Shown here: positions 2,301 through 34,253 of the stretch, piece after piece
How the letters are laid out: every line of letters starts with the position of its first letter
Numbering within the stretch: the first letter of the stretch is position 1
From: Thermoproteota archaeon
GTDB taxonomy: Archaea > Korarchaeota > Korarchaeia > Korarchaeales > Korarchaeaceae
Length of the DNA stretch: 36,756 nucleotides
NCBI GenBank assembly: GCA_027061785.1
Contig: JAMOVA010000078.1
Coordinates: forward strand, 1 to 36,756
Direction: 5' to 3'
Notes under the pieces: model-generated
The model's database searches: none
What the model was told of the DNA's origin: nothing
Seen by the model: the letters and a program-made list of their open reading frames with translations, nothing else
Made by a program: the position numbers and the translations under genes

Positions 2301-3614
2301 ATGGTTTTGCTGGTTTCCCTCTTATTAAGATCGTTCAGTACCTCGGTTTTGGGAAGGGCATGGAGGAAACTAGGCGTGCCCAAACTGGTCAGGACAAGCA
2401 TAACCTATAGGCTCCTCATCACCTCATATGAGGTGCTATCAACAGCCGCTCAATCCTCCATATTCCTAAGGATCATTAGGAGGACCTGTAGCTATGTCAG
2501 TACGCTCACCTCAGGTATAAGCAAAATAGCTCCGCGGTGGGGCATAGGCCTTCCAATAATAAGAAGATTGATTGATATACTACTTTCCCCATGGATGCTC
2601 CCTTTGGGCTTCCTCCTATTCTTCTGGTCATCAATGGTTAGAGTCTCAACTCTGACCATGATCTTGATTTATTCCACCGTACTCGTGATGGCCTTAGGGA
2701 TTCTCTTGGCTTATAAGGAGGAAGATCTTCGCGTTATCGATAACAAGGGGCTGGTTATCTTTCTCGGCGTTGTCATGTTCCTGTTAGGCTACATAGCCTT
2801 CATCATGCAGGTGTCAAGAGTAGGGGGCCTTCCTTTACTGAACGATGAGCTCAGAAGAGGGCTATCCCCCATCCTCAACTATCTAGCTTGGACCACCGTT
2901 CCCGGCACCGCATTTCTCCTCTCCTCTTTGAAATTGAGGAGATGCGAGGCCTACTCGCTAGCTCTAATAGGATTCATTCCCTCGTTTTTCTTGGCTTTCA
3001 GAACTGAGATGATAGCCTACATATTGATGGCCCTTGTTGTGCTCTATCACAGGAAAATGATCAATTACAAGCAGGTTTTCCTCGGCCTGTTGATGGCAGC
3101 AGCTTTCTTCCTCGGGGTAGGCGCGATAAGATCGTTAACCACCGGCCTAGCCCAGAACCCGCTTCTCTCGGTTCTTTATAGACCAACAATCACAATAGCG
3201 GCTCTCGACACGATAGTCAGGCTATACGCCTTCAGACCGGTTACTGGCGGATGGGTACATCTAGCGGCTCTATCATCACTGGGGCTCATCAGAGGGTCGC
3301 GTTATGGTCCTAGAACCTTGATAAGTATCTACGTGGGAGGCAGGAGGACTGTATCGACTACGGCAACCTTGATAGGAGGGCCTCTCCTAGACTGGGGGAT
3401 ACTAGGTGCGGTAGTGGTCTCTCTCGTCTTCTCTTACCTACTGGCCCTAGCCTACAGGTTCTCCAAGAAAGCGGACTACCTGCTCGGCCCCTACTCCGTG
3501 CTATTCGCCTATTTGATCGTCGGGATAGAGACGGGAATACTGGACCTCAACATATACATCTACCTCCTCCTCGCCGTGATGGTTCTTCTCACCTCCCTGA
3601 GGCCGGAGAAATGA
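2301..3614 (+). CDS. Polytopic membrane protein, oligosaccharide repeat-unit polymerase-like (copy 1)
   Basis: A 437-residue protein with about nine or ten hydrophobic segments, beginning near residue 100 after a basic N-terminal region. Two features resemble Wzy-like/O-antigen polymerase families of archaea: an FRTE segment at residues 233-236 in a membrane-loop context, and a loop near residues 350-370 reading TVSTTATLIGGPLLDWGILG. Both recur in the next gene, so the two are probably tandem paralogues. The expected role is joining lipid-linked glycan units outside the membrane for surface polysaccharide or glycoprotein. This is a family-level inference and no catalytic residue is proven. 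The ATG lies only one or two bases after the G-rich tract, so the start is uncertain. The stop overlaps the next start (ATGA). Confidence 0.6.
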   Translation: MVLLVSLLLRSFSTSVLGRAWRKLGVPKLVRTSITYRLLITSYEVLSTAAQSSIFLRIIRRTCSYVSTLTSGISKIAPRWGIGLPIIRRLIDILLSPWMLPLGFLLFFWSSMVRVSTLTMILIYSTVLVMALGILLAYKEEDLRVIDNKGLVIFLGVVMFLLGYIAFIMQVSRVGGLPLLNDELRRGLSPILNYLAWTTVPGTAFLLSSLKLRRCEAYSLALIGFIPSFFLAFRTEMIAYILMALVVLYHRKMINYKQVFLGLLMAAAFFLGVGAIRSLTTGLAQNPLLSVLYRPTITIAALDTIVRLYAFRPVTGGWVHLAALSSLGLIRGSRYGPRTLISIYVGGRRTVSTTATLIGGPLLDWGILGAVVVSLVFSYLLALAYRFSKKADYLLGPYSVLFAYLIVGIETGILDLNIYIYLLLAVMVLLTSLRPEK

Positions 3615-4786
3615 GATCGCTCAGAGAAGCGATATACCTCTTCTCAGTGCACCCCACGATAGGTATATCCACGATTCTAGTGGCGATCCTTCTATTGGGC
3701 TCTCAAAGTTACGGGCTGGATTACAGGTGGGTACTGGTATCTGGGTTGGGTGTTCTAGCCTTTCAGCTGGGTCTTGTCGCTGACTCCAAGGTCGGCGGTA
3801 GGAAATTGCATAGGATATCACTCGTCATCAGTGAAGTCCTAGTGGTCACCCTATTGGCAGTTTCCTTCAAGGAGATAACTCCTCTCTACCCACTAATAGC
3901 CCTGACGTGGGTGGCTGCGCTCAACTTGGCCGCCTACATCATTGCACACAGCAAGGGCGAGACACCCATCTTCCAACTCTTGGTTTATGCCTCTGGAACC
4001 TTCTTCGTGGTGCACTCATTCCTCCAATATGGAGACTGGGGGGTCATAAGGGAGCTACCGCTGACTCCCGTCGAGGGAGCTTTCGGGATGTTCCTGATCT
4101 TCATCTCCTACCCGAGCCTCTTGTGGCGGTTGATGGAAGGCGGACGCAGGCTCTCTCCTTGGGTCTTCTTGTCCCTGACCTCCGCGTTGATGATGCTCCA
4201 CGGATTCAGGGCGGATGTCTTCTTGGTGATCCTGTCCACCTTCCTACTTCTGGTCAGGAGGAGGGATCCTAGGGGCTTCGCACTCATGATTATCCTTCTA
4301 GTGCTGTTCATCGCCATCGGGGAGGTGAGGTCGTACGTTCACGTGCCGACCTATGAGAGGGTCGCTTTCAGACTCACAACTACCTACTATTACTCGAAAG
4401 AGTTGTGCAGCTACTTCCTGACACCACTACCTCCATATGGGCCCTTCTGGCTCTCATCCATACCCCTGCACCCATCGCAATCCTTGGGCAGGGGGATCTT
4501 CGGCAAGGCTTACGGGATCACGCCCACCATGTTCATCGGCCTACTTGTGGATCTGGGCCTGATAGGCATGATGGTCCTCTCCGTGCTGATAGGGTTCCTC
4601 TCGGGATACAGCTACCGCCTATCAATGGAGGGAGGCAATGACCTGTTCTCATACAGCATAGTATGGCCTATACTCATTACGAGGACCGAGATAGGATTCA
4701 GTCAACTGGATTTGGCCCTCATAGCGGGCTCGGTGGTGTTCGCCTCCCTAGCCAATCTTATTAATGGGAGTGATCAAGCTAGCTAG
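3611..4786 (+). CDS. Polytopic membrane protein, oligosaccharide repeat-unit polymerase-like (copy 2)
   Basis: A 391-residue protein with about ten hydrophobic segments and almost no long soluble domain. GFRAD at residues 198-202 and a later ITPTMFIGLLVDLGLIG loop parallel the FRTE and TVSTTATLIGGPLLDWGILG segments of the gene before it. This supports an ancient tandem duplication of a Wzy-like polymerase. It is translationally coupled to that gene by an ATGA overlap. The substrate is unknown and no glycosyltransferase genes lie beside it in the window. Alternatives are another integral-membrane glycan-processing enzyme or a transporter. The product is surely membrane-embedded; the enzymatic role is tentative. 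Confidence 0.6.
   Translation: MRSLREAIYLFSVHPTIGISTILVAILLLGSQSYGLDYRWVLVSGLGVLAFQLGLVADSKVGGRKLHRISLVISEVLVVTLLAVSFKEITPLYPLIALTWVAALNLAAYIIAHSKGETPIFQLLVYASGTFFVVHSFLQYGDWGVIRELPLTPVEGAFGMFLIFISYPSLLWRLMEGGRRLSPWVFLSLTSALMMLHGFRADVFLVILSTFLLLVRRRDPRGFALMIILLVLFIAIGEVRSYVHVPTYERVAFRLTTTYYYSKELCSYFLTPLPPYGPFWLSSIPLHPSQSLGRGIFGKAYGITPTMFIGLLVDLGLIGMMVLSVLIGFLSGYSYRLSMEGGNDLFSYSIVWPILITRTEIGFSQLDLALIAGSVVFASLANLINGSDQAS
4757..4766 (+). promoter_or_regulatory. Probable TATA box for rps8e-srp19-gar1
   Basis: CTTATTAATG lies inside the 3' end of the preceding membrane-protein gene, about 38 bases before the rps8e ATG. Archaeal TATA boxes sit about 26 bases before the transcription start, which would place the start near 4787 and give a leader of about 13 bases. 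Seen by eye only. Confidence 0.4.
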
Positions 4787-25720: not shown

Positions 25721-25746
25721 CCTCAGTGGGGCGCCTTAACCGGAAT

Positions 25747-28700
25747 ATGTCGGCCGATGAGAGGTACTTCATTTCGCTCGAAGAGGATCTAAAGAGAGTG
25801 CTCGAGGTCGCCAAGAAGGCTAGAGCTGCAGGTTACGACCCTAAGGAGGATGTGGAGATAAAGATAGCGAACGAACTCCATGAGCGAATAGTCGCGCTCT
25901 TCAACGTGGAGTCCTTAGGGGAGAGAGTAAAATACTGGCTGGAGAAGACCGATAACAAGGTAGAGACGGCTTTCAGGGTCATAGCTGAGATGATACCCAG
26001 AGAAGGTGAGGTTCCCAAGATAGATGTCGGAGATAACGACGAATACAGGGCTGAGCTGGCGCTGAGAGTGGGCATGGCCATAATAACCGATGCCACGGTC
26101 TCCGCCCCGATCGAAGGGATAAGCAGGGTGGCCATAAAGGGTGTAGGCCGTGATGCCTACCTCTCCGTGTACTATAACGGACCGATAAGAACTGCTGGAG
26201 GTACTGAGGGAGCTATCAGCGTCCTGATGGCTGACTACATAAGGCAGAGACTGGGTTTGGGCAGGTACGTCCCTACCCATGAGGAGGTTGAGAGGTACAC
26301 CGAGGAGGTCTTCCTGTACAAGAGGGTGGCCCATCTACAGTACAACTCCGAGCCTGAAGAGGTGAGGAGGGCGGTCATGCACATACCAATCGAGGTAACG
26401 GGCCCCCCAACCGAGAAGGAGGAGGTCTCTTCCTTCAGAAACCTTCCTAGGGTGGAGACCAACAGGATAAGGGGAGGGGCTGTCTTGGTCATCAACGACT
26501 GCGTCATACAGAAGGCCAAGAAACTGAAGAAGATCATAAAACAGCTCAAGGAGTCCATAGAGGATTTCGACGATTCCGCTTGGAGATGGTTGGGAGAGGA
26601 CGGCGGTCGGGAAGAGAAGGGCGGCGAAGGAGCGCAGGATGAGGGCTGTCCAGTCGTGGAACCCTCGTACAAGTACCTGAAGGATGCGGTCATGGGAAGG
26701 CCCGTGTTGGCCCACCCCTCTAGGATCGGGGGATTCAGGTTGAGGTACGGCAGATCTAGGAACACGGGACTGGCGAGCATCGGGATGAACCCGGCGACCA
26801 TGTACATCCTCGACAGCTTCGTGGCGGTGGGCACTCAGGTCAGGATCGAGAGGCCCGGGAAGAGCGCCGTTGTGATGCCGGTAGATTGGATAGAGGGGCC
26901 TATCGTGAGGCTCAGGGATGGAAGCGTGATTAGGATCGACGACCCCGAGCAGGCCAGAGAGCTGGCTGGTTCGGTGGAGAAGATACTGCACCTGGGAGAT
27001 GTCCTGATAGGCTTCGGGGAGTTCCTCGAGAACAATCACAAGCTCCTCCCATCAGCTTGGGTGGAGGAGTGGTGGTATTCCCTCCTGAGCGAGAAGGCCG
27101 AAGAGCTGGGAATAGATCCTCCTGTGGAAAGGTGGCAGAGGATCTCCTTTTTAGAGGCCTTGGAGATATCCAAGAAGTTCGGCATCCCACTCCATCCGAG
27201 GTACACTTATTTCTGGGAGCACGTGAGGGTCAGGGAACTGCTGACTCTACTGAAGGCCGTGAGGGAAGGGACCAGATCCGGAGAAGCGATCTCCCTCAGG
27301 GCGAGTGACGAGATCAAGGACATCTTGGAGAGACTAGGGGTTCCTCACAGGGCGGGAATGAACATGCTATGGGTTGAGGGGGACGACGCGGCCCTCCTAG
27401 ATTACTTAGCATCCAAGATACCCACCGAAGTAGATGTCGATAAGATCTCTGAGTACGAGACCCTCAGATTCCTCAATGAGCACCTGGACGTCAAGGTGAT
27501 GCCAAAGGGCCCCACGAAGATCGGCATGAGGGTTGGTAGGCCGGAGAAGGCTAAACCTAGGAAGATGAAACCTCCGGTCAACCTGCTCTTTCCCATAGGG
27601 GGACTCAAGGGGATGACCCGCTCAATGGAGGCCGCATACAATCAGGGCAAGGTAGAGGTCGAAGTGGCCCTGAGGGTGTGTCCCAGCTGCGGAACCAAGA
27701 CCACGAGGTACAAATGCCCGAAATGCGGGGCGAGGACAGTCCCACTCATGTTCTGTCCTATCTGCGGCAAGAGGGTCAACGGCAGGTGCAGGGACCATCC
27801 CAACGTGGATCCGGTTCCTTACAAGAGGATCGTCCTGAACATAAAGGAGGAGGTGGATAGGGCCCTTTCCAACTTAGGAGAGCATGTAGAAGTCTTGAAA
27901 AAGGTTAAAGGTGTTAAGGGGCTGACCAGCGGATCTAAATCACCCGAGATGATAGAGAAGGGCATTTTGAGGGGCAAGTACGACCTCTACGTCTTCAAGG
28001 ATGGTACGATAAGATTCGATGCGGTTAATGCGGCACTCACCCACTTCAAGCCCAAGGAAGCAGGGGTTCCCATCTCGAAGCTGAGGGAGCTGGGCTATAC
28101 CCACGACATTCACGGGGAGGAACTTGTGAGCGAGGACCAGATCCTCGAGCTGAAGGTTCAGGACATGATAATACCTAGGGAAGCTGCGAAGTACCTGTTC
28201 AGAGTCTCCAAGTACGTGGACGAGCTCCTGGAAAAGGTGTATGGCTTGGAACCCTTCTATAACTTGAAGAGCGAGGAGGACTTGGTGGGGCACTTGGTCC
28301 TCACAATTTCGCCCCACACGTTCGTGGCGAATGTCGCCCGGATAATCGGATTCACTGATGCGGACGTTCTCTACGCGCACCCCTTCCTCCATGCCGCCAA
28401 AAGGAGAAACATCGACGGGGACGAGGACTCCATAATGCTCGCCTTAGACGGTCTCATCAACTTCTCCCAGGACTTCCTGCCCTCCACTCCAGGGGGAAGG
28501 GAGGATGCGCCCCTCCTGATGGTGACTAGGGTGGATCCGGAGTACATAGACGACGAGGTGTACAACATGGAAGTAGTGACCTCCCTGCCCTCAGCGTTCT
28601 ATGAAGCCACTTACAGGTACGAGGATCCAGGCAAGCTAAAGGATCTGGTGCCAACGGTGGAGACCGAGCTCTCGAGGGGCGTCAAGTACCCGGAGATTGG

Positions 28701-29274
28701 GTACTCCGTACCCACCTCCCACGTCTACGGGGGGCCGCTCCAGACGATGTACAGGAAGCTGAACAAGATGGAAGACAAGATGAGGGCCCACTTCTCCTTG
28801 GAAGAGAGGATAAAGGCGGTGGATAAGATGGACGCCCTCTCGAGGGCCATCTCGTCCCACTTCATCAGGGACATCGTTGGCAATCTGAGGAAGTTCGGCC
28901 AACAGACGTTCAGGTGCACCAAGTGCAACGCTAAGTACAGGAGGCCGCCGCTCTCGGGCAAATGCCTCGTGTGCGGTGGACCCATACAACTCACCGTGCA
29001 CAAGGGAACGGTGCTGAAGTACTTGGAGCCCACTCTATCCCTCATGCGCGAGTACGGGATTGAGGGATACCTGTCCCAGAGGATAAAGGTGCTCGAGGCC
29101 GAGGCCAGATCCCTCTTCAGGGAGGAAGAGGATGCCAGCTCTTTGAACACCCTGGAATCCGTTCTAGGGGAGAAGCCCTCGGATATGAAGAAGCCTCTAA
29201 GGAACAGGGATGAGGAGAAGAAGGGGGAGAGCAAGGAGAGGCCGGTTGCCAGGAAACTCGTGGATTTCCTGTAG
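25747..29274 (+). CDS. polD2: D-family DNA polymerase large (catalytic) subunit DP2
   Basis: Catalytic subunit of PolD, the replicative polymerase of most archaea other than Crenarchaeota. From ATG 25747 it has 1175 residues; an in-frame GTG at 25726 would add seven. The conserved N-terminal segment VYYNGPIRTAGGTEGAISVL is near 140-160. A zinc site CPSCGTKTTRYKCPKCG starts at Cys645 and continues with CPICGK. The catalytic signature is NIDGDED at 888-894, where Asp890 and Asp892 correspond to the essential acidic pair. A second zinc site, CTKCNAKYRRPPLSGKCLVC, begins at Cys1057. The chain ends RKLVDFL, a possible PCNA-binding tail. No intein is visible. The DP1 exonuclease subunit is not in the window. 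Confidence 0.96.
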   Translation: MSADERYFISLEEDLKRVLEVAKKARAAGYDPKEDVEIKIANELHERIVALFNVESLGERVKYWLEKTDNKVETAFRVIAEMIPREGEVPKIDVGDNDEYRAELALRVGMAIITDATVSAPIEGISRVAIKGVGRDAYLSVYYNGPIRTAGGTEGAISVLMADYIRQRLGLGRYVPTHEEVERYTEEVFLYKRVAHLQYNSEPEEVRRAVMHIPIEVTGPPTEKEEVSSFRNLPRVETNRIRGGAVLVINDCVIQKAKKLKKIIKQLKESIEDFDDSAWRWLGEDGGREEKGGEGAQDEGCPVVEPSYKYLKDAVMGRPVLAHPSRIGGFRLRYGRSRNTGLASIGMNPATMYILDSFVAVGTQVRIERPGKSAVVMPVDWIEGPIVRLRDGSVIRIDDPEQARELAGSVEKILHLGDVLIGFGEFLENNHKLLPSAWVEEWWYSLLSEKAEELGIDPPVERWQRISFLEALEISKKFGIPLHPRYTYFWEHVRVRELLTLLKAVREGTRSGEAISLRASDEIKDILERLGVPHRAGMNMLWVEGDDAALLDYLASKIPTEVDVDKISEYETLRFLNEHLDVKVMPKGPTKIGMRVGRPEKAKPRKMKPPVNLLFPIGGLKGMTRSMEAAYNQGKVEVEVALRVCPSCGTKTTRYKCPKCGARTVPLMFCPICGKRVNGRCRDHPNVDPVPYKRIVLNIKEEVDRALSNLGEHVEVLKKVKGVKGLTSGSKSPEMIEKGILRGKYDLYVFKDGTIRFDAVNAALTHFKPKEAGVPISKLRELGYTHDIHGEELVSEDQILELKVQDMIIPREAAKYLFRVSKYVDELLEKVYGLEPFYNLKSEEDLVGHLVLTISPHTFVANVARIIGFTDADVLYAHPFLHAAKRRNIDGDEDSIMLALDGLINFSQDFLPSTPGGREDAPLLMVTRVDPEYIDDEVYNMEVVTSLPSAFYEATYRYEDPGKLKDLVPTVETELSRGVKYPEIGYSVPTSHVYGGPLQTMYRKLNKMEDKMRAHFSLEERIKAVDKMDALSRAISSHFIRDIVGNLRKFGQQTFRCTKCNAKYRRPPLSGKCLVCGGPIQLTVHKGTVLKYLEPTLSLMREYGIEGYLSQRIKVLEAEARSLFREEEDASSLNTLESVLGEKPSDMKKPLRNRDEEKKGESKERPVARKLVDFL

Positions 29275-29279
29275 GGAGG

Positions 29280-29609
29280 ATGTTCCACTTGAAGTGGGTC
29301 AGGATAGGGGAGGTTAGGGAAGGCGAGGTGGCCATAATAGGGGTGGTCATCAACGTGATAGAGAACTACCTGATCTTGGACGACGGTACATCCCGAGCAA
29401 GGGTTTACTACGATAGGGCCTCCGACTTCAAGCCCAAGGACATAGTGCTGGTGGTGGGTTCGGTGATCACGTCGTCGGAGGATTTCAAAGAGCTGCAGGG
29501 ATACGCAATTGCCGACATATCAGGAATAGATATAAGTTTGCTCAGGGATGTGGATGAGGTAAGGCGAGAAGTGGAGAGAAAACTGAAAGGTGGTAGAGAT
29601 GGTGAATAG
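29280..29609 (+). CDS. Small OB-fold protein between polD and pcna
   Basis: Not recognised as a named family. The 109-residue protein looks like a single OB-fold: beta strands in WVRIGEVREGEVAIIGVVIN, ENYLILDDGTSRARVYYD and KDIVLVVGSVITSS, then a charged C-terminal helix (DEVRREVERKLKGGRDG). The DDGTSRARV strand is typical of nucleic-acid-binding OB-folds in RPA, Stn1 and RMI-type proteins. It starts 5 bases after polD and overlaps pcna, so it is probably co-translated with the replisome. It has no zinc site and lacks the multiple OB-folds of full RPA. The ATG at 29280 is almost on top of its GGGAGG; a TTG at 29289 is better spaced, so the start is uncertain. Confidence 0.75.
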   Translation: MFHLKWVRIGEVREGEVAIIGVVINVIENYLILDDGTSRARVYYDRASDFKPKDIVLVVGSVITSSEDFKELQGYAIADISGIDISLLRDVDEVRREVERKLKGGRDGE

Positions 29610-30351
29610 GGTGGTCTTTGAGGAGGCTAGCACCCTCAAGGCCATAGTTGATGCGGTCGAATCCTTGGTGGGCGAGGCCTCCATCAAGCTGGATCCGGAG
29701 GAAGGCATGGGACTTCAGGCCTTGGATCCCTCGAAAACCGCTATGATCCAGCTGATACTCCCTCGAACCTATTTCATAGACTTTGAGGCGGACCAGTCGA
29801 ACTTCTACGGGATAAACTTCACAGATCTCTCCAAGATACTCAAGAGGGTGAAGGCCAAGGAGAGGGTGGAGCTGGAGTTCACCGAGTCCATGATGAAGGT
29901 GACCGCGACCGATGGATACAGGAAGACCTTCGAGCTGCCTCTGCTGGCCGGGACTCCCTTTGAGTTCAAGACGATAAAGGTGGACTATAAGGCCAAGGCG
30001 AGACTCGACAGCGATGTGATACCTAACGCCATAAAGGACCTGAAGATAATAGGATCAGACGTTGAGATCTACATAGACAGCGAGAAGGTCGAGTTCAAGG
30101 CAGAGAGCGACAAAGGCAGGGCAATAATATCGATCACGAAGGAGGATAGGGCCTTGATAGATGTGTGGGCTGAGGAACCCTCTAAGAGCGTTTACAACAT
30201 GGCCTACTTGGAGAAGATGACGAAGCCTGCGAAGATTTCCGAGGAGGCTGACTTGGAATTGAAGACTCAGGCCCCCCTCAAGCTTACCTACCCTCTCGGA
30301 GGCATAGAGGGGGCTGGCATAACCTATTACCTAGCCCACCTGCAGGTATGA
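29599..30351 (+). CDS. pcna: DNA polymerase sliding clamp PCNA
   Basis: Ring-forming processivity factor for polymerase, ligase and nuclease. From ATG 29599 the product has 250 residues, the standard length. Family marks are DPSKTAMIQLILPRTYFIDF, the centre-loop region with YGINFTDLSKILKRVKAKER, and the C-terminal SVYNMAYLEKMTKPAK and PLKLTYPLGG. The ATG has AAAGGTGG six bases upstream; GTG at 29590 is an alternative three residues earlier. It overlaps the OB-fold gene by 11 bases and is followed 4 bases later by priL. Only one clamp gene is seen here. Whether it forms a homotrimer is unknown. Confidence 0.97.
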   Translation: MVNRVVFEEASTLKAIVDAVESLVGEASIKLDPEEGMGLQALDPSKTAMIQLILPRTYFIDFEADQSNFYGINFTDLSKILKRVKAKERVELEFTESMMKVTATDGYRKTFELPLLAGTPFEFKTIKVDYKAKARLDSDVIPNAIKDLKIIGSDVEIYIDSEKVEFKAESDKGRAIISITKEDRALIDVWAEEPSKSVYNMAYLEKMTKPAKISEEADLELKTQAPLKLTYPLGGIEGAGITYYLAHLQV

Positions 30352-30355
30352 TCAG

Positions 30356-31285
30356 ATGAGGGAAGGGGAGATCCTTCTCATCGCCCCTTTTTCGAGGGAG
30401 GCTGCAGCTCTCCTGGAGGAGCAGGGCCTCACATTGGAAGACTTGGCCTTCGACCCATTGCTGGAGAACGCTAGGAGGCTCGCTAGGGAGAGGTTGATCA
30501 GGGCAATCGAGGGAGGGACCATTCACCCGGATCGGACCAACCCCATGAACGAGGTGTACGCCTTCGTCGCAGCGAAGCTCATAGCCTCGAGGGTCGGGAG
30601 ATCAATGCTCAGCAGGCTGGCCAATTACGAGGCCAAGAGGTTCATGGAACTATCTGAACGCTTGCCCACAGAGAAACTGATTGATCTGGCCAAGGGGACG
30701 TTCGGCTTCGAGCTCAGGCTTGAGGACGGACTCTGGGTCGATGTGGTCAGCTACTCTAACGGTTGCGCCGGTATAGGCGGGCCGAAATGGAGGCTCGTCA
30801 ATCGTGTGGTGAGAAGGGGGTACGTCCTCGTAAATGAGAGGGACCTGAGAAGGCTGATCTCGGAGTACGTAAAGATGAGGGTCATGGAAACCCCTAGAGT
30901 CGAGCTTCCCGAGCCCTTGGAGGAGATAGCCAAGGAGATCTCGGACATGTTCGCCAAGAGGATGAGGAAGAGGTTCAAGAGGCCCAAGAAGGGGGACTTC
31001 CCGCCCTGCATAAAGGACCTGATATCCAAGCTCAGGAGGGGGGAGAATCTGACCCACCAAGCCAGGTTCGCCCTCACATCCTTCCTGCTCAATGTGGGCT
31101 GGTCGGAGGAACAGGTACTGGATCTGTTCCGGAGCGCGCCGGACTTCAACGAGAGGATAGCCTCCTACCAGATCTCTCACATAGCTAGGAGGAAGTACAA
31201 GGCGCCGAGCTGCGAGACCATGAAGAACTGGGGCCTATGCCCCGGTGATTGTGGAAGGAGGTACATGCTGGAGGGCTTGGATTGA
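30356..31285 (+). CDS. priL: DNA primase large subunit PriL
   Basis: Regulatory subunit of the archaeal/eukaryotic-type primase, with a 4Fe-4S cluster in its C-terminal domain. The 309-residue product carries the four likely cluster cysteines: Cys218 (FPPC), Cys286 (APSC), Cys295 (GLC) and Cys299 (GDC). The conserved helical segment ARFALTSFLLNVGWSEEQVL lies between them. The N-terminal half is the helical scaffold that binds PriS. It starts 4 bases after pcna and its stop overlaps the proposed priS start as TTGA. Confidence 0.94.
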   Translation: MREGEILLIAPFSREAAALLEEQGLTLEDLAFDPLLENARRLARERLIRAIEGGTIHPDRTNPMNEVYAFVAAKLIASRVGRSMLSRLANYEAKRFMELSERLPTEKLIDLAKGTFGFELRLEDGLWVDVVSYSNGCAGIGGPKWRLVNRVVRRGYVLVNERDLRRLISEYVKMRVMETPRVELPEPLEEIAKEISDMFAKRMRKRFKRPKKGDFPPCIKDLISKLRRGENLTHQARFALTSFLLNVGWSEEQVLDLFRSAPDFNERIASYQISHIARRKYKAPSCETMKNWGLCPGDCGRRYMLEGLD

Positions 31286-32430
31286 GGGAGCTCGAAATCC
31301 TGTTCGCGAAATACTACAGGAGCATGGCCGGCACGATCTACGTTTCGGACGTGCCGCTCAGGGAGTTCATGTTCAGGGACTTCGAGGGGAAGGTCAGGAG
31401 GCACATATCCTTCAGGGACCTCCCGGAGCTCAGGAGGTACTTGGTGGACAACCCGCCCATGCACGCCTACTACTCCGTCTCCCTGTACAGGAACCCGACG
31501 GCTCCAATGGATGAGAAGGAACCCATAAGGGCCGAGCTCCTCTTCGATATAGACTCCACGGATTTCAAGGACGAGGAGTGCGAGAGGGAATCCATATGGA
31601 GGTGCAAGAACTGCGGCCTCAGTGGGAAGGGGATCCCACCGGAGAAGTGCCCGAAATGCGGGTCTGAGAGGATAGAGGTCAACCACTGGCTCAACGAGAG
31701 GTGTATATCGCTGACCAAGGACGAGGTGAGAAAGCTCATAGAGGTGCTGTCGGAGGACCTCGGCGCCTCCTTGGATGAGATAGCTATCTCCTACACCGGC
31801 AATAGGGGTTTCCACGTCAGGGTATCGGAGGGGAGGCTGACCACACTCTCCAAGGAGGGGAGGAGGGAGGTCGCCTTCTACGTGATGGGCAGGGGCTTCG
31901 ATCCAACCCCCCTATTCATAGTTGAAAGAGGACTTGTGAGGCTGGATCTGAGGAGCGGCATTGTCAGGAGGGCCCTTGAATACTTACTGGACTCCAGCGA
32001 GGATCCTTCAGTGAAGGAGAAGGTGCTCTCCCTCTCCAAAGGTATAGGGGTCAAGCTCAGCTCTAGGGAGAGGAAGCGCCTCCTCAGCCTGCTAAAGGAG
32101 TCAGCCCAGAGATCCGGTGCGAGGATAGACTGGATGGTCACCATGGACACAGGGAGGCTGACTAGGATACCAAACAGCATCCACGGCAAGACCGGATTCA
32201 GGGCTTTACGGCTTTCTCTAGATGAGTACGAGACCTTCAATCCGTTCAAAGATGCAGTCGGTCTGCCCTCAGATCCGGAGATCAAGGTTCGGATGAAGAT
32301 GCCTGTTCCAAAATTCAGATTGAAGGGGGAGACCTTCGGGCCATATCCTCCGGGAGAAGAGGTTCAGCTGCCCGGTTTCGCGGCGGCATTCGTTATCCTT
32401 AGAGGGAGAGCTGAACCACTCAATCATTAA
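31282..32430 (+). CDS. priS: DNA primase catalytic subunit PriS
   Basis: Synthesises RNA/DNA primers for replication. From TTG 31282 the product is 382 residues. The longer open frame, from an ATG at 31249, would overlap priL by 37 bases and adds 11 residues without family similarity. The TTG overlaps the priL stop and has GGAGGG upstream. The catalytic acidic pair is Asp89 and Asp91 in ELLFDIDST. The zinc knuckle is CKNC ... CPKC about 20 residues later, and TGNRGFHVRV holds the conserved His of the nucleotide-binding site. The C-terminal part ends in PPGEEVQLPGFAAAFVIL. Confidence 0.94.
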   Translation: MRELEILFAKYYRSMAGTIYVSDVPLREFMFRDFEGKVRRHISFRDLPELRRYLVDNPPMHAYYSVSLYRNPTAPMDEKEPIRAELLFDIDSTDFKDEECERESIWRCKNCGLSGKGIPPEKCPKCGSERIEVNHWLNERCISLTKDEVRKLIEVLSEDLGASLDEIAISYTGNRGFHVRVSEGRLTTLSKEGRREVAFYVMGRGFDPTPLFIVERGLVRLDLRSGIVRRALEYLLDSSEDPSVKEKVLSLSKGIGVKLSSRERKRLLSLLKESAQRSGARIDWMVTMDTGRLTRIPNSIHGKTGFRALRLSLDEYETFNPFKDAVGLPSDPEIKVRMKMPVPKFRLKGETFGPYPPGEEVQLPGFAAAFVILRGRAEPLNH

Positions 32431-32459: not shown

Positions 32460-32960
32460 ATGGTAAAGTACAAGGATGTGATCAGGGAAGTACTCATCTC
32501 GCTGGCCGAGGGCCAAATCGATGAATCTCTAGTTGATCGGCTCAAATCAGCCGAAGAAGAGTTACTGAGGGACCTACCGGAGGGCTTAGAGGGCAGGATA
32601 TATCTCAAGGCGGCCGAGGTAATCAGAGATCTGCGAATAGAGGTGGAAAACACTCTATCTCTGACTAGAACATTCAAGAGAGTCCTTTATGGAGGAATAA
32701 TATCGGAAGAGATTCCGAGAGCTGCTGATGAGACCGAGAAGGTGGAATCGAAGGAGGAAACTGAAGAGAGAAGGGTTTTCACTCCTCTGAACGATGGGGT
32801 CGAGAGGGTATTAGTAACGTTTAAAACTCCCGTGACCAAATTCGTTGGTGTAGACATGAAGGTCTACGGACCGTTCTCCAAGGGAGATGTGGCATTCATT
32901 CCCTTGGAGAACGCAGTAGCCTTAAAAGAGAAGGGTGTTGTTGAGGTGGTCGAGGAATGA
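32460..32960 (+). CDS. GINS complex subunit (Gins51/Sld5-Psf1-like)
   Basis: GINS joins MCM and the Cdc45/RecJ-like protein in the replicative helicase and bridges to primase. The 166-residue product has an N-terminal helical A domain (about 1-85). An acidic linker (DETEKVESKEETEERR) leads to a C-terminal beta-rich B domain reading VTKFVGVDMKVYGPFSKGD and then VAFIPLENAVALKEKGVVEV. The A-then-B order and the VGVDxxxYGPF segment match archaeal Gins15/51. Gene position right after priS is a recurrent archaeal arrangement. The last 4 bases overlap the rpl44e start. Confidence 0.88.
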   Translation: MVKYKDVIREVLISLAEGQIDESLVDRLKSAEEELLRDLPEGLEGRIYLKAAEVIRDLRIEVENTLSLTRTFKRVLYGGIISEEIPRAADETEKVESKEETEERRVFTPLNDGVERVLVTFKTPVTKFVGVDMKVYGPFSKGDVAFIPLENAVALKEKGVVEVVEE

Positions 32961-33235
32961 AGGTTCCCGCAGAGATCAACACGTATTGTCCGAGATGCGG
33001 CAGGCATACCAAGCACAAGGTATCCCTATACAAGCAAGGCAAGGCGCGGACGATGTCATGGGGTCAGAGGCAGCTAGAGAGGAAGAGGAGAGGTTACGGA
33101 GGAGAGCCCAGGGGTAAGTTGAGGAGGAAGGCGAAGACTACCAAGAAGGTGCTCCTCGTGCTCACATGCGAGGAGTGCGGCAGAAAGGTCGTGAGGAACT
33201 TGGGGAGGCTCGCTAGGGTGGAGATAAAGAGGTGA
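32957..33235 (+). CDS. rpl44e: 50S ribosomal protein L44e
   Basis: Zinc-binding large-subunit protein, 92 residues. Zinc ligands are Cys11-X2-Cys14 (YCPRC) and the later CEEC, with the basic KARTMSWGQRQLERKRRGYG between, as in the family. The ATG overlaps the GINS stop (ATGA) and its 3' end runs into rps27e. The set L44e-S27e-aIF2alpha-Nop10 is a conserved archaeal cluster. Confidence 0.96.
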   Translation: MKVPAEINTYCPRCGRHTKHKVSLYKQGKARTMSWGQRQLERKRRGYGGEPRGKLRRKAKTTKKVLLVLTCEECGRKVVRNLGRLARVEIKR

Positions 33236-33240
33236 TGTCC

Positions 33241-33447
33241 ATGGGCAAGGTGGAACTGGTCCCTCTCCCCAAGAGCTACTTCGTCAGAGTGAGGTGCCCT
33301 AAGTGCGGCAACGAGCAGATAATCTTCTCCCACGCCTCCAGAGAGGTCAAGTGCCATGTGTGCGATGAGGTACTGGCCAGACCCAAGGGCGGCAAGGCCG
33401 AGATCTTGGCGACTGTCATCGAGTACTTGGGTAGAGTGAGAGAGTGA
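33241..33447 (+). CDS. rps27e: 30S ribosomal protein S27e
   Basis: Small zinc-finger ribosomal protein. From ATG 33241 it has 68 residues, with ligands Cys19-X2-Cys22 (RCPKC) and Cys38-X2-Cys41 (KCHVC) and the YFVRVRCPKCGNEQIIFSHA core. GTG 33232 and ATG 33235 are in-frame alternatives overlapping the rpl44e stop. I prefer 33241 because GAGGTGAT sits about six bases ahead of it. The 3' end overlaps the aIF2-alpha start as GTGA. Confidence 0.95.
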   Translation: MGKVELVPLPKSYFVRVRCPKCGNEQIIFSHASREVKCHVCDEVLARPKGGKAEILATVIEYLGRVRE

Positions 33448-34253
33448 GCTACAAGGCCTTCCCGAGGAGAAACGAGCTTGTTGTCGGTACTGTGAAGAGA
33501 GTAGAGGACCATGGAGTGATAGTAGAGCTAGATGAGTATGAGGGACTCGAAGCCTACATCCCCCGGAGTCACGTGGCCTCGGGAAGGATAAAGGACATTA
33601 GAGATTTCGTAAAGGAAGGAGATAAGATAGTAGGCAGGGTCATCAGGGCCAACAGGAAGCTAGGGCAGGTTGATCTCTCCCTCAGGTACGTCAGCGAGGA
33701 GCAGAAGAAGAGGAAGCTGGAAGAATGGAAAGAAAGAGTTAGGGTGATCTCTCTGATTAAGCTGGCCGCTCAGAGAGCCGGTTTCCCCGATCCAGAAGCA
33801 ATTGCCAAGGACTCGTGGATGAAGCTTGCCGACTACTACAGGAGCCCCATGGAGGCCCTGGAGGACGTGTTATATGAGGGAGTCGAACCCCTCTTGAAGG
33901 CGGGGTTAGATGAAAGGTTAGCTAAAAAGCTGGAGGAGATAGTGAAGGTTCAGATAAAGCCGCCCATCTACATAAAGAACATAGTGGTGAAGCTCGTCTC
34001 CTACGCCCATGATGGAATAGAGAGGATTAAGAAGGCTCTACTGAGGGGACTCTCTACCCCGAAGACTGAAGGCGTTGAGGTAGACATATACACGGCTGGG
34101 GCGCCTAGGTACATAATCTCGATACGCTCCCAAGACCCGAAGCTGGTGAGGAGGATGTCTACTTACATAATCAAGGCCATCTCCAAGGAGCTAGGGGATA
34201 CAGAGATTTTCGAAGTCGTGGAAGAGAAGGAGTACAGGAAGAGACTGGCATAA
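33444..34253 (+). CDS. aif2a: Translation initiation factor aIF2 subunit alpha
   Basis: Alpha subunit of the heterotrimeric factor that brings Met-tRNAi to the small ribosomal subunit. The 269-residue protein has the S1-type OB domain at about 12-84 (ELVVGTVKRVEDHGVIVELD, EAYIPRSHVASGRIKDI, VGRVIRANRKLGQVDLSLRY). A helical domain and the C-terminal alpha/beta domain follow. The last ends in GVEVDIYTAGAPRYIISIRS and EIFEVVEEKEYRK. The start is GTG overlapping the rps27e stop. nop10 follows 78 bases downstream. Confidence 0.96.
   Translation: MSYKAFPRRNELVVGTVKRVEDHGVIVELDEYEGLEAYIPRSHVASGRIKDIRDFVKEGDKIVGRVIRANRKLGQVDLSLRYVSEEQKKRKLEEWKERVRVISLIKLAAQRAGFPDPEAIAKDSWMKLADYYRSPMEALEDVLYEGVEPLLKAGLDERLAKKLEEIVKVQIKPPIYIKNIVVKLVSYAHDGIERIKKALLRGLSTPKTEGVEVDIYTAGAPRYIISIRSQDPKLVRRMSTYIIKAISKELGDTEIFEVVEEKEYRKRLA

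Follow-up and report, generated by a model that had tools for sequence, protein, structure and literature searches.

Among archaea, heterotrimeric RPA has been ascribed to the Thermococcales (PMC11686378, and the passages found of PMC2643942), and RPA trimers have been modelled for Asgard archaea (PMC10122647). The RPAs of other archaea have been discussed as single proteins or as Rpa1-Rpa2 pairs (PMC8329085, PMC3984812), and the Thermoproteota are said not to encode RPA (PMC10122647). The trimer of Pyrococcus abyssi is held by a bundle to which each subunit contributes one C-terminal helix, and its Rpa3 subunit, which neither contacts ssDNA in the complex nor binds it by itself, touches the N-terminal part of Rpa1 in the neighbouring complex (PMC10122647). 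The winged helix of Rpa2 binds primase and PolD (PMC11686378).

A 36,756-nt stretch of a korarchaeal genome (GenBank accession number JAMOVA010000078.1, positions 1 to 36,756; here the window) was found to carry an unnamed gene between polD and pcna. Its product is very probably Rpa3, the smallest and structural third subunit of a heterotrimeric RPA of the korarchaeon, with the rpa genes scattered over the genome; the probability of this assignment is estimated at about 0.92. An earlier note, made from the sequence alone, had described the gene as packed between polD and pcna in a run continuing with both primase subunits and GINS, and ORF coordinates and Pfam matches confirmed this arrangement. 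The features of the region are as follows.

25726..29274, + strand: polD large subunit DP2, C-terminal ...KLVDFL (Pfam PF03833, PF24844, PF24846)
29274..29279, + strand: GGGAGG, Shine-Dalgarno-like (sequence)
29280..29609, + strand: rpa3, very probable archaeal RPA small subunit (Rpa3/RPA14, OB-4/OB-E), 109 aa; possible alternative start TTG 29289, 106 aa (ORF, PDB profile match, hhalign, AF2, Foldseek, tree, start comparison)
29325..29516, + strand: codons of the predicted five-strand OB barrel, residues 16-79 (DSSP on the AF2 model)
29532..29597, + strand: codons of the C-terminal helix, residues 85-106, presumed trimerisation helix (AF2; HMMER and hhalign alignment with the C-terminal region of P. 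abyssi Rpa3; role by analogy with PMC10122647)
29590..29609, + strand: stretch shared by the rpa3 3'-end and the listed pcna ORF; alternative starts of pcna at ATG 29599 and GTG 29602 (sequence, start comparison)
29590..30351, + strand: pcna, sliding clamp (Pfam PF00705, PF02747)
30356..31285, + strand: priL, primase large subunit (Pfam PF04104)
31249..32430, + strand: priS, primase small subunit (Pfam PF01896)
32460..32960, + strand: gins51 (Gins15) (Pfam PF22090)
32957..34253, + strand: rpl44e, rps27e and aIF2-alpha, translation genes after the replication block (read from translations; order conserved in relatives)

The C-terminal residues of DP2, KLVDFL (window 29257-29274), form an ending that we take to resemble the motif by which PolD large subunits elsewhere bind PCNA at their C-terminus.

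The 109-aa ORF runs from ATG to stop, begins after a gap of 5 nt from the DP2 stop (29274), and shares 20 nt at its 3'-end with the listed pcna ORF, an overlap that suggests translational coupling. The protein is encoded at 38-100% identity in 23 of the 24 genomes of the host's GTDB family, its own included, and the polD-rpa3-pcna arrangement, whose conservation had been proposed as a check, was present at every fetched locus of that family. Thus, the ORF is a genuine, conserved gene and more than a chance reading frame. Translation may start at TTG 29289, giving 106 aa, rather than at ATG 29280, since seven of eight more distant relatives carry an ATG at the codon aligned with this TTG; the Shine-Dalgarno-like GGGAGG lies 9 nt ahead of it. 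ATG 29280 is also possible as the start, as it is kept in the three closest relatives.

The best PDB match of the single sequence was P. abyssi RPA14 (E = 4e-5, residues 8-104 of 109). A profile built from 16 korarchaeal orthologues matched the same protein over nearly its whole length (E = 1.7e-11), the runner-up being yeast Rfa2 (E = 0.008), and hhalign placed the korarchaeal profile with Thermococcales Rpa3 at 97.5% (E = 5.6e-12). The AlphaFold2 model (24-row alignment, pLDDT 88.9) bore out the single OB fold foreseen in the earlier note: it consists of a five-stranded OB barrel, with strands at 16-27, 30-34, 39-43, 55-65 and 70-79, and a C-terminal helix at residues 85-106, and has no zinc finger. 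In the Foldseek search against the PDB, ranks 1-3 were all P. abyssi Rpa3 chains (TM 0.75-0.79, E 3e-7 to 2e-6), followed by RPA32, RMI2 and Ten1. OB folds are readily confused, and the scores of these last three call for caution on the Rpa3 identity, as do the identity of only about 29% to P. abyssi Rpa3 and the position of the gene apart from rpa1 and rpa2, unlike the Thermococcales arrangement. RMI2 was considered as an identity and rejected; it ranks below the P. abyssi Rpa3 chains.

No curated Pfam or NCBIfam model reached its cut-off on the protein, which gave only sub-threshold OB or unrelated matches; PF08661 (Rep_fac-A_3, eukaryotic-type RPA3) was among the models falling short. The characterised Thermococcales Rpa3 also lies below the Pfam cut-offs, scoring just 13.3 bits against the PF08661 cut-off of 23.5, and hence PF08661 does not define archaeal Rpa3. 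The earlier note recognised no named family and saw in the gene a candidate for a new replication protein. Neither statement stood, as the protein belongs to a known family, Rpa3 (RPA14/OB-E), whereas its suggestion of an RPA-like subunit, one option among several, proved correct. Both observations that could have spoken against that note's reading went the other way: relatives keep the gene at this position, and the protein matches a family of DNA-transaction proteins.

The partner subunits are encoded in the same genome. Rpa1 (contig C20, 571 aa) contains OB domains, REPA_OB_2 and a Rep_fac-A_C domain with putative zinc ligands in the form CPNC...CPNC, and matches P. abyssi Rpa1 over AROD-OB-1 and OB-2 (1.2e-27). 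Its gene (L132:4947-6662, +) is flanked by genes for an RNA 3'-phosphate cyclase and an ERCC4-HHH nuclease, and the protein exceeds P. abyssi Rpa1 in length (571 vs 358 aa) and in number of OB domains. Rpa2 (contig C13, 225 aa) matches RPA32 at 2e-8; its AF2 model comprises an OB fold, a helix (126-143) and a winged helix, with P. abyssi RPA32 as the top Foldseek match. The rpa2 gene (L133:4749-5426, -) overlaps that for aIF2-beta and is followed by those for aIF1A and a RIO kinase (L133:4361-4819, 3978-4346 and 3171-3959), a second link between replication and translation genes. The three rpa genes lie at three separate places, and with Rpa1, Rpa2 and Rpa3 all encoded in one genome, no component of a heterotrimeric RPA is missing from this organism.

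The pairing of rpa3 with pcna was followed across archaea with a profile of the korarchaeal sequences and the first distant matches, which matched 131 of 217 archaeal genomes, the weaker matches including Rpa2. Neighbourhoods were fetched for strong matches in other families, picked by score and not by context. Where pcna lay in the fetched stretch, the rpa3-like gene was within 400 bp of it in all but one of 45 loci (44) from beyond the host's family, representing 29 families, and on the same strand in 42; a random placement among ~800 genes would put hardly any of them beside pcna. One locus (L027) has the rpa3-like gene 4.7 kb from pcna, family f26 has no pcna in the fetched stretch, and the Thermococcales carry rpa3 between rpa1 and rpa2. 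Some loci showed further variation. Away from pcna, G127 of family f26 carries a tandem of two adjacent small OB genes (L130:6983-7711, +); in family f56, with genomes of 3.4-3.5 Mb, the rpa3-like gene adjoins pcna in divergent orientation (L124:5991-7306, L126:2891-4192); and at L129:6026-7330 (+) an rpa3-like domain ahead of pcna closes a 435-codon open frame, either a fusion or merely a long open frame.

Rpa3 and Rpa2 occur together in 90 of the 217 genomes, with Rpa3 only in 1, Rpa2 only in 35 and neither in 91 (Fisher p = 1.7e-30, uncorrected for shared ancestry and dependent on the thresholds E<=1e-10 and <=1e-20). A diverged Rpa3 is probably encoded in some of the Rpa2-only genomes, as G186, G173 and G175 show weaker matches ending ~30 bp or less from pcna.

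So constant a neighbourhood would also be explained if the protein, though descended from Rpa3, had departed from the RPA complex to become an accessory factor bound to PCNA or PolD. The nearness of rpa3 to pcna in so many families is in line with this, as is its position away from rpa1 and rpa2, beside which it was not seen outside the Thermococcales in the stretches examined. A PIP-box scan of the protein, however, gave no match, the C-terminal helix is retained in the AF2 model, and Rpa3 tracks Rpa2 across genomes; moreover, an archaeal gene neighbourhood often reflects shared expression and not contact. A PolD accessory factor had been among the earlier suggestions, and no evidence for it emerged. 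We regard this explanation as very unlikely.

The protein could instead be an ssDNA-binding OB protein of the Rpa2/Stn1 type (RPA32 family), as Rpa2 chains appear among the Foldseek matches and, with weak scores, in the profile searches, but Rpa3 outscores Rpa2 in every comparison. A profile of the pcna-adjacent proteins, made without korarchaeal or Thermococcales sequences, matched P. abyssi RPA14 at 2.9e-26 vs RPA32 at 3.4e-7, and against the korarchaeal profile it reached 99.5% (E = 3.7e-23), where the Rpa2 profile gave a weaker match (E = 4e-9). A tree built from 58 OB proteins divided Rpa2 at 100/100 from the korarchaeal, pcna-adjacent and Thermococcales Rpa3 proteins; the alignment was short (124 columns), and branching within the Rpa3 set was mostly unresolved. 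Furthermore, the protein ends after its helix with no winged helix in the AF2 model, and a separate, full Rpa2 possessing one is encoded in the genome, which makes an Rpa2/Stn1 identity extremely improbable.

That the protein is a lone minimal single-OB SSB, as its size and single OB fold led the earlier note to consider, has a negligible probability, given that it matched no SSB family in Pfam (PF21473, the Ssb-like OB family, included) or NCBIfam, that its best relatives are Rpa3 proteins, the P. abyssi member of which does not bind ssDNA alone (PMC10122647), and that the genome encodes, besides Rpa1 and Rpa2, an SSB clearly of the crenarchaeal type at another locus (PF21473, E 6e-11; L136:1899-2408, +; G000:C105:8662-8922).

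As the korarchaeal Rpa3 is homologous to that of P. abyssi, the same structural role is expected for it. By analogy, its helix would pack with the C-terminal helices of Rpa1, from the zinc-finger OB domain, and of Rpa2 into a trimerisation core; ssDNA would be bound by Rpa1 and Rpa2, while Rpa3, presumably not binding ssDNA itself, would hold the core together. As in P. abyssi, it probably also touches the neighbouring RPA along the strand, at the N-terminal OB. The gene is probably co-transcribed and translationally coupled with those for DP2, PCNA, primase and GINS, so that Rpa3 would be supplied together with the replisome.

Rpa3 itself is a known family, of which this gene is an ordinary member standing in a place that allows its recognition across archaea. 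A gene that recurs, unannotated, in the principal replication cluster of numerous archaea can now be named. The interest lies in the context, which may be new, and not in a new protein: no description of rpa3 beside pcna, or of an OB gene upstream of it, was found in the open papers on Rpa3 and PCNA that were covered, though an earlier annotation is possible and no priority is claimed. The Korarchaeia possess all three RPA subunits alongside a crenarchaeal-type SSB, at odds with the assertion that Thermoproteota lack RPA (PMC10122647), insofar as the Korarchaeia are included among them; relatives are deposited as 'Thermoproteota archaeon'. Where an archaeal RPA has been described as an Rpa1-Rpa2 dimer, or such a dimer proposed (PMC8329085), a re-test with a third subunit encoded ahead of pcna is suggested.

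A wider reading joins two propositions. The data favour the first, namely that the rpa3-pcna pair is ancestral to most archaea and that heterotrimeric RPA, hitherto regarded as characteristic of Thermococcales and eukaryotes, was the widespread state in archaea, its third subunit having been overlooked because its gene lies beside pcna and not beside rpa1 and rpa2. The second is that the pairing has been kept because of a physical link, made by Rpa3, between RPA and the PCNA/primase assembly, which may be the case. Taken together, the two are rather unlikely to hold.

Compared with known systems, the cluster has the order pcna, primase and Gins, then L44E, S27E and aIF2-alpha, of the archaeal replication-translation cluster (PCNA, PriS and Gins with L44E, S27E and aIF2-alpha) in the passages found of Berthon et al. 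2008 (PMC2643942); rpa3 ahead of pcna, present in the korarchaeal cluster, is not mentioned in those passages. Eukaryotic RPA3 (RPA14, PF08661) and Ten1 of CST have the same fold as the korarchaeal protein. Ten1 and Ustilago maydis Rpa3 are among the weak matches of the korarchaeal and pcna-adjacent proteins, and direct sequence matching of the korarchaeal profile to eukaryotic RPA3 in the PDB was not significant (114-aa U. maydis chain 4gnx_A, E = 0.48). Thermococcales Rpa3 is encoded in an rpa1-rpa3-rpa2 operon and has an N-terminal extension of the RRRKPA type, whereas the korarchaeal rpa3 adjoins pcna and its product has no such extension. The closest likeness is to P. abyssi Rpa3/RPA14 (PDB 8AAJ, 8AAS, 8C5Y), with which the korarchaeal protein shares, in a near full-length match, the single OB barrel and C-terminal helix, and likewise the presence of Rpa1 and Rpa2 in the genome.
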